20,490 nt of DNA from positions 1-20,490 of the IMG/VR virus record IMGVR_UViG_3300010885_007151; one strand, 5' to 3'. The notes below the pieces were generated by a model. The model saw nothing but the letters and a program-made list of their open reading frames with translations. It was not told the DNA's origin and did not search any database. The DNA comes from a virus. This document shows, piece after piece, positions 15,491-20,180 of the stretch. Position 1 is the stretch's first letter. The number at the start of each line of letters is the position of its first letter. The translations under genes were made by a program, and so were the position numbers.

Positions 15491-15730
15491 ATGGCAGGTA
15501 GTATAAACGATTTCAAATCAAGTTTTAAAACAGATGTAGCCAAAGTTGCCAGATTCGATGTTACTATTCCGGTACCCATCATTTTGGCACCATATATTTC
15601 AGATGGAAGAAATTTAACATATCGTTGTGAATCGGCTGCTTTGCCTGGTCGTGTATTTGAAACTGCTGAGAAGAAGATGGGTTCAGCTCCAGTAGAAAAG
15701 TTTCATATCGTACCAATTATAGTGAAGTAA
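15491..15730 (+). CDS. Tail-tube-fold protein (gp54/gp19 type), 5' part before a frameshift
   Basis: The N-terminal 79 codons of a tube-fold protein. SINDFKSSFKTDVAKVARFD (4-23) and LTYRCESAALPGR (42-54) match the tube pattern recalled from T4 gp19 (DFARPNLFQVEI, then FQCKATALPAG). The last recognisable family residues are PVEKF (67-71), after which the frame reads unrelated HIVPIIVK and stops. The true continuation lies in the -1 frame immediately after (see the next entry), and one missing base in TTTC at 15701-15704 accounts for the break. Start supported by AAGGAAC eight bases upstream. The whole protein would be about 198 residues and could be the tube initiator gp54 or a tube protein gp19. 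Position among baseplate genes favours gp54. Confidence 0.75.
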   Translation: MAGSINDFKSSFKTDVAKVARFDVTIPVPIILAPYISDGRNLTYRCESAALPGRVFETAEKKMGSAPVEKFHIVPIIVK

Positions 15731-15732
15731 CA

Positions 15733-16086
15733 ATGACATTTATTGTTTCTGATGATATGAATGAAAAGATTTTCTTTGATTCTTGGATGGAACTAATTAA
15801 TCCGAGTGATAATTATAACTTTCAATACAAAGCAAATTATGCTGTTGATGTATCAATTAATCAGTATGATGCACAAAACAGTTTAACTTACGCAGCAGTA
15901 CTGAGAGAGGCCTTTCCTCTTGCTGTAACTCAATTGGATATGGATTGGTCCTCTGATGCATATCATAAATTATCAGTAGTATTTGCATATAAACAATGGA
16001 ACAATAATACGGTTCAAAATCTTGGCCAAGCTTTTGCTCAACAAGCAATTACTGGTGCCTTGAGTGATGTAACAAGATTAATTTAA
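15733..16086 (+). CDS. Tail-tube-fold protein (gp54/gp19 type), 3' part after the frameshift
   Basis: The remaining 117 codons of the tube-fold protein. Reading this frame upstream of the ATG gives YRTNYSEVT, which continues naturally from PVEKF of the previous entry, so the ATG at 15733 is an internal methionine rather than a real start. The tail tube signature is at the end: AFPLAVTQLDMDWSSDAYHK (near residue 56-75) followed by LSVVFAYKQW, aligning with T4 gp19 LWPTNVGELQLDWDSNNEIQ and FEVTLALDYW. The 24 bases after the stop contain the gp26 ribosome binding site. If the interruption is real, the phage would lack a functional protein here, and an essential tube function makes a sequence error more likely. 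Confidence 0.75.
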   Translation: MTFIVSDDMNEKIFFDSWMELINPSDNYNFQYKANYAVDVSINQYDAQNSLTYAAVLREAFPLAVTQLDMDWSSDAYHKLSVVFAYKQWNNNTVQNLGQAFAQQAITGALSDVTRLI

Positions 16087-16110: not shown

Positions 16111-16836
16111 ATGGCTTTGCCAAAAATTGATACACCAGTCTATGAACTGGAATTACCGCTTTCTAAGAAGCATATTAAATTTAGACCTTTTTTGGTTAAA
16201 GAACAAAAAAATCTATTAATGGCCATGGAAGCAGACGATAAACAAACGATTGAAAGAAACATTCGTCAAGTATTAACCAACTGCACCATTACAGAAAATT
16301 TAGATATTAATAAGTTACCTGTAATTGATGTTGAATATTACTTTCTAAACTTACGGGCTAGGTCAGTAGGTGAGATAGTTGAAAACACATACATCTGTAA
16401 TAATGAAGTCAATGGTGAATTATGTGGTGGTAAAATGAAAGGTGTTTTGAAACTTTTGGATATTAAAGTTGATATTGATCCAAATATACCTGACACCATT
16501 CAGTTGACCGACAAAATTAGTATTAAATTAAAATATCCAGAATTTTCTTTGGCTGAGAAGTTAAGTTCAAAAGAATCTGCCGTTGATGTTGCTTTTGAGG
16601 TTGTGGTTGAAAGTGTTGAATGGATATTTGATGGTGAACAATACTATTATGCATCAGAAACACCAGAAGGAGAAATGTTACAGTTTATTGAATCTTTGAA
16701 TCAGGATCAATTTAAACAAATCGAACAATTCTTTGATAAACTTCCTACTCTTAATAAAAAGATTGAAATGAAATGTGGTAAGTGTGGTTTCGACCATACG
16801 ATAGAGGTGGAAGGGTTAGAAAGTTTTTTCGGGTAG
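16111..16836 (+). CDS. 26: Baseplate hub assembly protein gp26
   Basis: A 241-residue member of the T4 gp26 baseplate hub family (T4 208 residues). Typical elements are MALPKIDTPVYELELPLSKK with HIKFRPFLVKEQKNLLMA (1-38), LPVIDVEYYFLNLRARSVGE (69-88) and QFKQIEQFFDKLPTLNKKIE (200-219). Two cysteine pairs, C96/C105 and C222/C225 (KCGKCG), could bind zinc. An AAAGGAG with seven-base spacing is the strongest ribosome binding site in the window, suggesting high or early translation within the operon. The last codons, AGT TTT TTC GGG TAG, hold a T-TTT-TTC slippery heptamer at 16824-16830, and the -1 frame continues into the gp51-type ORF. Gp26 in T4 is needed for hub assembly; a chaperone role is proposed here. 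Confidence 0.87.
   Translation: MALPKIDTPVYELELPLSKKHIKFRPFLVKEQKNLLMAMEADDKQTIERNIRQVLTNCTITENLDINKLPVIDVEYYFLNLRARSVGEIVENTYICNNEVNGELCGGKMKGVLKLLDIKVDIDPNIPDTIQLTDKISIKLKYPEFSLAEKLSSKESAVDVAFEVVVESVEWIFDGEQYYYASETPEGEMLQFIESLNQDQFKQIEQFFDKLPTLNKKIEMKCGKCGFDHTIEVEGLESFFG
16824..16830 (+). promoter_or_regulatory. Slippery heptamer T TTT TTC for a putative -1 frameshift
   Basis: In the gp26 frame this reads xxT TTT TTC, the X XXY YYZ form used in -1 programmed frameshifting. After a slip, both tRNAs re-pair fully with TTT TTT, and translation passes the TAG at 16834-16836 into the 64-codon gp51-type frame. That frame has no ATG before 16887, well inside what looks like its conserved part. 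The inference is supported by gene position, not by experiment. Confidence 0.55.
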
Positions 16837-17024
16837 TATTTTGTCATGACAATTTGAGAAATTACTATAAAACTAATTTCTCTTTGATGCAACACCATAA
16901 GTATTCTCTCACAGAACTTGAAAATATGATACCGTGGGAGAGAGATGTTTATGTGGCCATGCTGATTCAGTATATTGAAGAAGAAAATGAGAAGATAAAA
17001 CAACAACAAGCTTCGAAACGGTAG
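16830..17024 (+). CDS. 51: gp51-type hub assembly segment, probably expressed as gp26 -1 frameshift extension
   Basis: A 64-residue frame with strongly conserved-looking content: RVVFCHDNLRNYYKTNFSLM, then QHHKYSLTELENMIPWERD and a charged helix ending EEENEKIKQQQASKR. In T4 genes 26 and 51 are adjacent and both act in hub assembly. The open frame extends back to a GTG at 16782, but that codon has no ribosome binding site and lies inside gp26. The first ATG (16887) would lose the NYYKTNF part. The simplest reading is that residues are joined to gp26 F240 by a -1 slip, giving a product of about 304 residues. The stop touches the next gene's ATG. Identification as gp51 is by order and recalled motifs; T4 gp51 itself is longer. 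Confidence 0.65.
   Translation, partial: RVVFCHDNLRNYYKTNFSLMQHHKYSLTELENMIPWERDVYVAMLIQYIEEENEKIKQQQASKR
16856..16882 (+). repeat. Perfect 9-base inverted repeat downstream of the slippery site
   Basis: GAGAAATTA at 16856-16864 and TAATTTCTC at 16874-16882 can pair fully around a nine-base loop. The hairpin begins 25 bases after the slippery heptamer, farther than the usual 5-9 bases for a stimulatory structure, and it is AT-rich. It may affect ribosomes or mRNA turnover, or be chance. Confidence 0.4.
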
Positions 17025-18602
17025 ATGGACAATAAAACATTTAAAGACTTAATCAAAAAAGGTGAACTCAGTTTAATACTGATGGATGGTGGTGCCGATT
17101 TAACACCATCACAAATGCGTAAAGTTCAATCCACCGCTAAAGATTTGGCCGATGACCGTTTAGAAAAAATGGCATTGGAATTAGCTGCATCTCCTGGTTA
17201 TCAAGAGATGATGATGAACCCCTTGATGTCAGTATTGTTGCCTAAGATTTTCAATACGGTCAATAATGAAAATAAGACGGCAGAACCTGAGAAAAAAGAA
17301 GTACCATCACCAGAATCACCAAAAGCTGAATTGGATCCAGAAAAAGATCCAAATCTTACAACTACTTCATCAAATGATACTTCAGAAATTTCTCCAGGAG
17401 ATTCCATTTCTGAAGCTGCCACTAAACTTTATAATTTTGTAATTGAAAACTATGAATATGATAATAAACAATTCAAAAAAGATAAAGATTATAGAGATTT
17501 ACTCGTTAAGAAAAAAGAAAAGCGAGTAAAACAATTAATTGGTTTATTTAAAGTTGATAAAGTTAAAAAATCCAAAGTTGATGAAGAAATAAAAAAGAAA
17601 GAATCGGAAAGTAAATCTACTGTTGAATCTGGTAAAAAAACTGGCGGTAAAACAACCACAAAAGTTACAGAACCTTCAGCACCAACAACTCCTTCTGCCT
17701 CTAAATTACCAAGTGCTGCTGGTACAATTGTTAAAGGCGTAGTTGGCGTTGGTTTAGCTGCTGTTGGTGCCTCTGCAATTGGTGGTGCTGAATCTGGTGG
17801 TAATTATAATATTACTTACGGTGACCGATTAGATAAAAATAAAAATATTGTTCGTGGATCAAATATGAGTCCCGAACAGAAGTTCGGTAAAGACCTTACA
17901 GAGTTAACTTTGGAAGAAGTTGATATGTTGGGTAAAGAACGAAATCGTGAAAAAATGAATACCAGTGCTATGGGTAAATATCAATTCATGAATAGTACAT
18001 TGTTTGGTTATAAAGACAAAGGCGGAGTCTTCCGTCCTGGATTAGTTCAAAGGTTAAATTTGGATATGAAAACTACCAAATTTAGTCCAGAAATTCAAGA
18101 AAAGTTATATGCAGTATTTCGCCAAGACAATTTAAATACACTACAAAAATTAGGAGTTCCAATTACTCCTGGTTATGAATATATGGCACACTATCTTGGT
18201 GCTGGCGGAGCAAAAGCCATCTATGATAGAAGAAATACAGACATGACTGTTCAAAAGGCTTTAGTTGATGCCGGATTAAAAGATCCAGTTAATGGAAAAG
18301 TTAATGAAGAATTGGCAAGATTAAAGGCTGCTGATTTTGAATCTATATTAGAAAATAGATTAAAAAAACATGGATTAGAACCACACGCAGAAGCAAAACC
18401 GGCACCGGCGGTTCCTGTATCAGAACCAACGAAACCTGAAATTCCAAGTCAAATGAAAAAATCATCGAACTCAAGTAATGTTAATTTGGGAGTAGTCAAT
18501 AATACTACAAGAATAGAGAAACCAGCGACTACATACCAGTTGTCACCACAAAATAAATCCAATCAACCACAATTGATTGAAGAACAATATAACGGTAATT
18601 AA
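17025..18602 (+). CDS. Tail hub or tape-like protein with lysozyme-like domain
   Basis: A 525-residue protein in several parts. Residues 1-80 are helical (TPSQMRKVQSTAKDLADDR). Residues 108-174 hold a DPNLTT...EISPGDSISE module with a helical tail that recurs in the next gene. Residues 144-200 are very lysine rich. Residues 231-253 are a glycine/alanine/valine-rich hydrophobic stretch that could cross a membrane. Residues 252-405 look like a peptidoglycan-cleaving domain of the lysozyme / lytic transglycosylase type: GGAESGGNY with candidate catalytic E256, then SAMGKYQFMNSTL (314-326) and YMAHYLGAGGAKAIYDRR (386-403). The C-terminus is proline rich. The domain may supply the muralytic activity missing from the split gp5. 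The gene starts at the last base of the gp51-type stop codon neighbourhood (no gap). Exact T4 counterpart unknown; gp28 or gp29 roles are possible. Confidence 0.7.
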   Translation: MDNKTFKDLIKKGELSLILMDGGADLTPSQMRKVQSTAKDLADDRLEKMALELAASPGYQEMMMNPLMSVLLPKIFNTVNNENKTAEPEKKEVPSPESPKAELDPEKDPNLTTTSSNDTSEISPGDSISEAATKLYNFVIENYEYDNKQFKKDKDYRDLLVKKKEKRVKQLIGLFKVDKVKKSKVDEEIKKKESESKSTVESGKKTGGKTTTKVTEPSAPTTPSASKLPSAAGTIVKGVVGVGLAAVGASAIGGAESGGNYNITYGDRLDKNKNIVRGSNMSPEQKFGKDLTELTLEEVDMLGKERNREKMNTSAMGKYQFMNSTLFGYKDKGGVFRPGLVQRLNLDMKTTKFSPEIQEKLYAVFRQDNLNTLQKLGVPITPGYEYMAHYLGAGGAKAIYDRRNTDMTVQKALVDAGLKDPVNGKVNEELARLKAADFESILENRLKKHGLEPHAEAKPAPAVPVSEPTKPEIPSQMKKSSNSSNVNLGVVNNTTRIEKPATTYQLSPQNKSNQPQLIEEQYNGN

Positions 18603-18605
18603 AAG

Positions 18606-20180
18606 ATGGAATATAGACAAGCCGATAAAATTAGAAGCAAGAGTGTATTACAACTTATTGCTGAAAAGAAATTTAAAGGGGATCAATCTCTTGGTTCTTC
18701 TATTGTTGGAGCTTTTTCTGATAAAATGAAAGCAAGAGCGGTGGGTATTAAAGAGAAACTTGATCCTCTGAACATGGTTAAGTCATTGGCAGGTACTGGT
18801 GTTGTTGGTAAATCTTTAGTAACTATGATTGGCCGTGCTTCAGGTAGAAGTGAAGAAAACATCCGTAGATTTGGTGGTTATGGTAGCAGAAAAAGAAAAT
18901 TAAAAGAAAGAAGCGATCCTAATTTTACTACTATTGGTTCGGATGAAACCGGTGAAGTTCAGCCTGGAGATTCTGTAGCCAATGTTTTAGCTAAATTAAC
19001 TGGTTTCATGGAAAAGAAACATGAACTCGAAAAGAAAGACCGTGAGATTGATGAAGCTTTCAGACAAGAGCAGATTAATGAAGATGACAGAAGGCACAAA
19101 GAACTTGTAACAGCCATCAGAGAGTTTACTAAAGGTAGAAAAACTTACACAGTAGAAACTAAAGATGAAGGTATGGGATTCTTTGATGGTATTAAAAAAT
19201 GGGTAATGGACACCTTTGGTGATTTATTAATATTAAAAAGTTTAACAGATTTTGTCAAATTGGTGAGTGCACCTTTACTCAAAGGTCTTGCTACATTTTT
19301 AACAGGTGGTGGATTGCCATTCTTAGCTTTACTTGCCGGCATTTACGGTGCAAAAGAATTACTTCAATATATTAATGATAAAACTCCAGACATGAGTGTT
19401 TTATCACCAACAGAAGCAGCAAATGCTTTAAAAAATGGTAGTGAAAAAGATATTGCAGTTCAAGGCGGAAAACAAAAGTTACAAGAAATTGTTAAAAAAG
19501 GTCCAGCGGCCGCAAAAGAAATATTGGACAGAAATGATGAGAAAGAAATATTGGCCGCAGGTGGAAAAGATAAACTTATACAAATTGTAAAAGAAGGTGA
19601 AGTTGCTGTTCCTGCTGAAAGTGAAATGACTGGTATTAAATTGCCTGAAAAGATTCATGCAAGACCCGACACAACCGGAGGCAAAAATGCTGGCCGTGCA
19701 AGAGAGTGGGATAATAAATGGTCTAAAAATTATAATCCGGATGGAACAAAAAAACAATCTGTACCCCAAGAAACAAAATTAAATACTACACCAGTTACTA
19801 CACAAGAAACAAAGACTACAACGCCGACAGCAACACCAGCACCAACAGTACAAGAAACAAAACCAGCACCGACAGCGACAGCTATTCCGGATGTTAAGAA
19901 ATCTGAAAGGTCTGATGGATCATCTCCACAAACAATACCAGCAGAAACAAAAAATGTATATAACAATATTGTTACTGCACCTAAAGTAGAAGTTATGGCA
20001 GAAGTTCCTGCCAAAAATATACCTACGATGATTGATGAAGGTGATGTATCAAATCGGAATAGCTCAGTTATTGCTGTTAATAATAATGTTCAAAACATAG
20101 GTTCAAATAAACAAGATATAGTTAGTACCGCATCAACTTCTGTTCGTGGACCAATAAGACATAGAGTAGTACCGGTTTAA
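18606..20180 (+). CDS. Tail hub or tape-measure-like protein
   Basis: A 524-residue protein, last gene of the rightward operon. Residues 1-100 are basic and helical. Residues 104-173 repeat the module of the preceding protein (SDPNFTTIGSDETGEVQPGD, then a charged coiled-coil segment to RRHKELVTAIREF). Residues 205-255 contain two hydrophobic stretches (VSAPLLKGLATFLTGGGLPF, LALLAGIYGAKELL) likely to span a membrane, as in tape measure proteins. Two 20-residue repeats lie at 280-299 and 312-331. Residues 385-450 form a P/T-rich linker with four (Q/A)ETK units. The asparagine-rich end (482-524) is beta-like and ends in RHRVVPV. Position after gp26/gp51 matches the T4 location of gp29 tape measure and other hub genes, and its length is near the 590 of T4 gp29, but no direct homology is readable. 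Confidence 0.65.
   Translation: MEYRQADKIRSKSVLQLIAEKKFKGDQSLGSSIVGAFSDKMKARAVGIKEKLDPLNMVKSLAGTGVVGKSLVTMIGRASGRSEENIRRFGGYGSRKRKLKERSDPNFTTIGSDETGEVQPGDSVANVLAKLTGFMEKKHELEKKDREIDEAFRQEQINEDDRRHKELVTAIREFTKGRKTYTVETKDEGMGFFDGIKKWVMDTFGDLLILKSLTDFVKLVSAPLLKGLATFLTGGGLPFLALLAGIYGAKELLQYINDKTPDMSVLSPTEAANALKNGSEKDIAVQGGKQKLQEIVKKGPAAAKEILDRNDEKEILAAGGKDKLIQIVKEGEVAVPAESEMTGIKLPEKIHARPDTTGGKNAGRAREWDNKWSKNYNPDGTKKQSVPQETKLNTTPVTTQETKTTTPTATPAPTVQETKPAPTATAIPDVKKSERSDGSSPQTIPAETKNVYNNIVTAPKVEVMAEVPAKNIPTMIDEGDVSNRNSSVIAVNNNVQNIGSNKQDIVSTASTSVRGPIRHRVVPV

Follow-up and report, generated by a model that had tools for sequence, protein, structure and literature searches.

The 20,490-nucleotide window analysed here, positions 1 to 20,490 of IMG/VR record IMGVR_UViG_3300010885_007151 and derived from a T4-like phage, very probably encodes a short (241 aa) and a long (about 304 aa) tail chaperone by means of a programmed −1 frameshift at the end of a gp26-type gene. 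This reading is strongly supported: the heptamer is present and conserved, the two frames stand in the expected relation, both parts have T4 homologues in gp26 and gp51, and the predicted fold is chaperone-like. Under the proposed mechanism, the majority of ribosomes would end at the TAG codon and release the gp26-type short form, whereas a minority would slip back by one base while two Phe-tRNAs occupy T TTT TTC, re-pair on TTT TTT, bypass the stop and append a gp51-type domain of 64 aa, yielding the long form. Many tailed phages make a short and a long tail chaperone in this manner. If lambda G/GT and P2 E/E' are a guide, the tape measure protein would be coated by the short form, and a few long forms would connect it to tube or baseplate components. 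The occurrence of slipping, its rate and the roles of both products are what we infer.

The final codons of the gp26-type gene read GAA AGT TTT TTC GGG TAG (E-S-F-F-G-stop), in which T TTT TTC fits the X XXY YYZ register for a tandem −1 slip (Table 1), exactly as a first-pass annotation of this DNA had read it. The −1 frame is open from a GTG at 16782 to 17024. The first codon past the predicted slip is CGG at 16830, which would give the junction peptide ...ESFF-RVVFCHDNL..., and the post-slip frame continues CGG GTA GTA TTT TGT and onwards up to a TAG at 17022-17024, so that the predicted long product comprises 240 residues before the slip and 64 after it. The same annotation had described 64 further residues in an open −1 frame with no ATG until 16887, and the sequence bears out both statements. 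The ATG of the next gene, at 17025, directly abuts the stop codon of the extension.

Table 1 Features of the gp26/gp51-type junction and its surroundings (window coordinates)
Feature	Position	Strand	Evidence
gp26-type gene, short form (TAC-N), 241 aa	16111..16836	+	PF12322 T4_baseplate, E=1.4e-55; phrog_150 baseplate hub, E=1.2e-61; HK97-chaperone-like predicted N-terminal domain (2OB9, Z 7.3, 84 residues)
Shine-Dalgarno-like GAGGTGGAAGGG, ending 8 bases 5' of the heptamer; possible frameshift stimulator (putative role)	16804..16815	+	Anti-SD energies in relatives
Slippery heptamer T TTT TTC, −1 register	16824..16830	+	Direct reading; in-register TTTTTTC/TTTTTTT in 116/121 distinct related junctions
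gp51-type extension, −1 frame, 64 aa plus stop; predicted C-terminal domain of the long form	16830..17024	+	phrog_634, E=1.3e-30, positions 58-119 of 121; −1 frame in related junctions inspected; coding-type codon-position pattern
Zero-frame stop TAG, 3 bases 3' of the heptamer	16834..16836	+	Direct reading
Next gene, 525 aa, putative tail or hub protein	17025..18602	+	Weak transglycosylase-like match, phrog_4067, E=2.4e-6

Whether relatives keep the heptamer had been named as a check on the idea, and it is kept widely. Loci were pooled from 80 close viral contigs, 25 annotated phage regions and 80 contigs reached through more distant gp26 proteins, all of them selected blind to the slippery site; two divergent gp26 proteins used as single-protein queries returned no matches. 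The 182 usable loci reduced to 121 distinct 120-base junctions, which, because of shared ancestry, are not independent trials. An in-register T TTT TTC or T TTT TTT was present in 116 of them, against 6 occurrences of the same in-register heptamer in 27,141 codons elsewhere in these gp26 genes, and its recurrence at the junctions is far beyond chance. Identity among the gp26 proteins of the set falls as low as about 25-35%. The first T of the heptamer is invariant and is carried by seven different codons (AGT, AAT, GAT, GCT, TCT, ACT or CAT), in genes where T-ending codons make up only about 30-70% of those for Ser, Asn, Asp, Ala and Thr. Among the 116 heptamer-bearing junctions, 107 have their stop separated from the heptamer by 0 or 3 bases.

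The −1 frame is conserved together with the heptamer. In the related junctions inspected, which come from cyanophages and from Vibrio, Sinorhizobium, Caulobacter, Desulfovibrio, Acidovorax, Aeromonas, Rhizobium and Methylophilales phages, the extension lies in the −1 frame, and among 45 close relatives its codon-position entropy (0.33 at the first, 0.17 at the second and 0.83 at the third position) is that expected when a coding frame is under selection. These data also bear on a rival explanation, in which the two genes are truly one frame interrupted by a sequencing error, or the extension is a remnant of a decayed gp51. A neighbouring tail-tube gene in the window does show an apparent one-base difference, but the identical frame relation recurs in independent isolates and metagenome contigs, and the extension is conserved with a coding-type codon-position pattern; error or decay is therefore vanishingly improbable and was rejected on the strength of the conserved junctions.

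Start codons bear on a separately translated gp51, produced without fusion by translational coupling through a stop/start overlap or an internal start. Databases do list gp51 as a gene of its own, and when the −1 frame was scanned between its preceding stop and a point 33 nt beyond the heptamer, an ATG was found in 23 of the 116 junctions, some as a TAATG overlap, so that re-initiation is possible at these 23, where the ATG lies near the start of the extension. By contrast, 59 of the 116 contain no ATG, GTG or TTG ahead of the conserved part, the frequent absence of a downstream start that the first-pass annotation had proposed to look for, and a further 34 offer only GTG or TTG. Annotated starts such as those in Syn33 and S-8S29 remove conserved residues, conservation of the heptamer would be without reason, and the gp26-like part and the extension are fused in T4 gp51 (see below). 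We consider a separate gp51 as the general explanation very unlikely. At four junctions (L085, L087, L165 and L086) a T-run heptamer coexists with an ATG that overlaps the gp26 stop, and a separate short gp51 product is therefore possible there besides the fusion. The extension is open and conserved in the −1 frame yet unannotated in Aeromonas phage AS-szw (L101 3197-3363), S-WAM1 (L003 3014-3203) and S-MbCM7 (L004 3028-3202), names and loci being paired in the order listed.

The signal itself, six to eight consecutive T, is compatible with transcriptional slippage, in which RNA polymerase would add a base on the T run and the edited mRNA would be read normally. Most runs, however, are just six T followed by C, and a T6 run is short for efficient RNA polymerase slippage; moreover, the run stands in the exact two-tRNA slip register at 116 junctions. 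To this explanation we give slightly less credence still than to a separately started gp51, and ribosomal frameshifting remains the preferred reading.

Both parts of the predicted product belong to recognizable families. The gp26-type protein scores 188.8 bits against Pfam PF12322, above the curated cut-off of 24.5, and matches the baseplate hub family phrog_150. For the extension, which the first-pass annotation had called conserved-looking, the match is to phrog_634 'baseplate hub assembly catalyst' (gp51), in an alignment that begins only at profile position 58. A second match of the extension lies at the end of phrog_150 (positions 235-276 of 282, 8e-6), and some members of that family therefore carry the extension joined to gp26. 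An AlphaFold2 model of gp26 built with 41 relatives (pLDDT 86) found its best matches among solved structures in 3FGX (Z 8.0), 2OB9, which is the tail assembly chaperone of HK97 (Z 7.3), and YqbN, 3KLU (Z 7.2); 3FGX and 3KLU are members of a tail-assembly-chaperone family. The fourth match was 5IR0, a protein of a phage-satellite-like element (Z 4.8). These four matches all fall over gp26 residues 1-95; entries from rank 5 downward reach Z 3.8 or less, so that values of 7-8, moderate when taken alone, lie well above all unrelated entries. Where the model's top matches among predicted viral proteins carried a name, they were gp26 proteins. A Foldseek search with the model found no significant PDB match, and the gp26 profile, run against the sequences of solved structures, hit nothing. 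Judged by its best matches, the N-terminal domain of gp26 appears to have a tail assembly chaperone-like fold, an outcome in favour of the earlier reading, which had proposed a comparison of predicted folds.

The comparison with T4 both corrects and supports the idea. The first-pass annotation had noted that 26 and 51 are adjacent in T4 and had suggested on that basis that the idea could extend to a broad group. The two genes are indeed neighbours, but they lie on opposite strands and are divergent (gene 26, minus strand, 115802-116428; gene 51, plus strand, 116479-117228), so that frameshifting cannot join them, and a gene-pair frameshift in T4 itself was rejected. T4 gp51 (249 aa) is encoded by one ordinary open reading frame and aligns with the predicted fused product over nearly its entire length, extension included (hhalign E=1.1e-12, 235 columns; columns 15-287 of 309), whereas T4 gp26 aligned only with the part before the slip (columns 14-245, E=2e-22). 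The profile of the extension matches T4 gp51 at residues 200-243 (E=2e-5), and T4 gp51 matches phrog_150 along nearly its full length as well as phrog_634. T4 gp51 is thus homologous to the fused product and T4 gp26 to the short form, and T4 encodes the short and long forms as two genes, expressed from separate mRNAs and with no frameshift, whereas in the contig the genes overlap in the −1 frame. A single-polypeptide long form in T4 lends independent support to the fusion predicted in the contig, and gp26 and gp51 as the T4-like short and long chaperone pair, the core of the original proposal, are supported by this comparison together with the heptamer, the −1 frame, the scarcity of start codons and the predicted fold. 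Having 26 and 51 as separate, independently started genes characterizes the T4 group and not the whole family, and the contig does not show this arrangement. In T4, gene 26 is annotated with a product from an internal in-frame start, 26' (L001 3803-4090).

Elements around the heptamer that might stimulate slipping were also considered. In relatives, the best anti-SD energy 5' of the heptamer averages −5.84 kcal/mol, compared with −1.95 in other gp26 windows. Synonymous recoding still gives a mean best energy of −4.96, and most of this Shine-Dalgarno-like signal is therefore a by-product of a conserved Glu-Gly. Compared with shuffled sequence, the 70 bases 3' of the heptamer show slightly more structure (mean z −1.4). 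RNAalifold predicted no consensus structure there across 41 close relatives, and structure comparison among close relatives revealed no conserved hairpin or pseudoknot downstream of the junction. A 9-bp hairpin in the window (columns 33-41/51-59), which begins 25 bases past the heptamer, was rejected as a stimulator: it is 89% paired, with just one pair changed on both sides. In other lineages, different downstream hairpins are predicted.

The five distinct junctions without the heptamer (5 of 121) belong to Ackermannviridae and two Vibrio phages, and in all of these the extension is still in the −1 frame. Some have a TAATG. The Ackermannviridae junction reads GAR ATT TTC ATY TAA; in Taipeivirus UPM 2146 and relatives, the sole start-like codon ahead of a GTG at +32 is ATT. 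These Ackermannviridae loci (L098 and L188-L202) combine the −1 extension with neither a T6 heptamer nor an early ATG, and their ATT overlaps the stop (TAATT) at the place where sister groups have TAATG. A tentative and rather doubtful generalization would be that T6C, with at most an upstream SD-like element and no conserved downstream structure, yields the long chaperone in the majority of T4-like phages that do not belong to the T4 group, whereas Ackermannviridae keep the −1 layout with a different junction; since some of their genera have no start codon except ATT, an atypical slip or a restart at ATT might operate there.

The earlier suggestion that the next two genes encode tape-like or hub proteins was not confirmed: the first product has the weak transglycosylase-like match given in Table 1, and the second (18606-20180, 524 aa) contains hydrophobic stretches and gave no notable match. 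Profile searches found no clear tape-measure match for either protein. One of the two may be the tape measure protein; in Caulobacter phage Cr30, the annotated tape measure gene lies two places 3' of the extension. Upstream, at 15491-16086, a tail-tube-like gene is broken into two ORFs, of 79 and 117 aa, that do not share a frame, whereas the near-identical contig L005 has this gene as a single ORF of about 202 aa; a one-base alignment gap near position 15703 points to a sequencing error or a recent mutation in this gene.

The contig and most of the loci compared are uncultivated relatives. In the contractile-tail phage P2, gpE and gpE' (FETUD operon) arise by a −1 frameshift at a T-run heptamer, a likeness of mechanism for which no sequence relation is claimed. 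The slippery sequence of lambda gpG/gpGT differs from T TTT TTC. For the T4-like phages, Vladimirov, Gautam and Davidson reportedly named genes 26 and 51 in 2022 and described frameshifting in several groups. Lambda makes a short and a long chaperone by −1 frameshifting close to where its first gene ends (PMC5009743), again a likeness of mechanism; the same 2016 recoding review treats T4 as an exception to G/GT frameshifting, and a 2010 T4 review counts gp26 and gp51 among the hub assembly chaperones (PMC3004832). The Vandenendeviridae/Andersonviridae locus described for phage Adele also has a conserved −1 frame extension, with a GTTTTT motif ending the first gene (PMC12846349), but concerns other virus families and another motif. 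As quoted in two later papers, the study in Virology 2022, 566:9-15 is the source for T4-like tail assembly chaperone genes (PMC10885494, PMC12846349). In their remarks on these genes, the PRFect paper mentions separate short and long genes in some T4-like phages instead of frameshifting (PMC10885494), and the Adele paper treats poly-T frameshift signals as known in T4-like TAC-N genes (PMC12846349). The role proposed for the gp26/gp51 chaperone genes credited to Vladimirov et al. (2022) is the same as that of the pair in the contig and, because those genes had by these accounts already been identified, the idea of frameshifting is not new. The finding in the contig is sound and has good support, but it is of a known kind and mostly confirms published work.

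Its consequence is chiefly one of annotation. The gp51 of cyanophages and their relatives is usually listed separately, sometimes with a start that removes conserved residues, or is not listed at all; the fix would be to annotate gp51 of cyanophages and related phages as the frameshifted end of gp26. T4 gp51, long termed a hub assembly catalyst, resembles gp26 plus an extra domain because it is the long chaperone form with a gene of its own.
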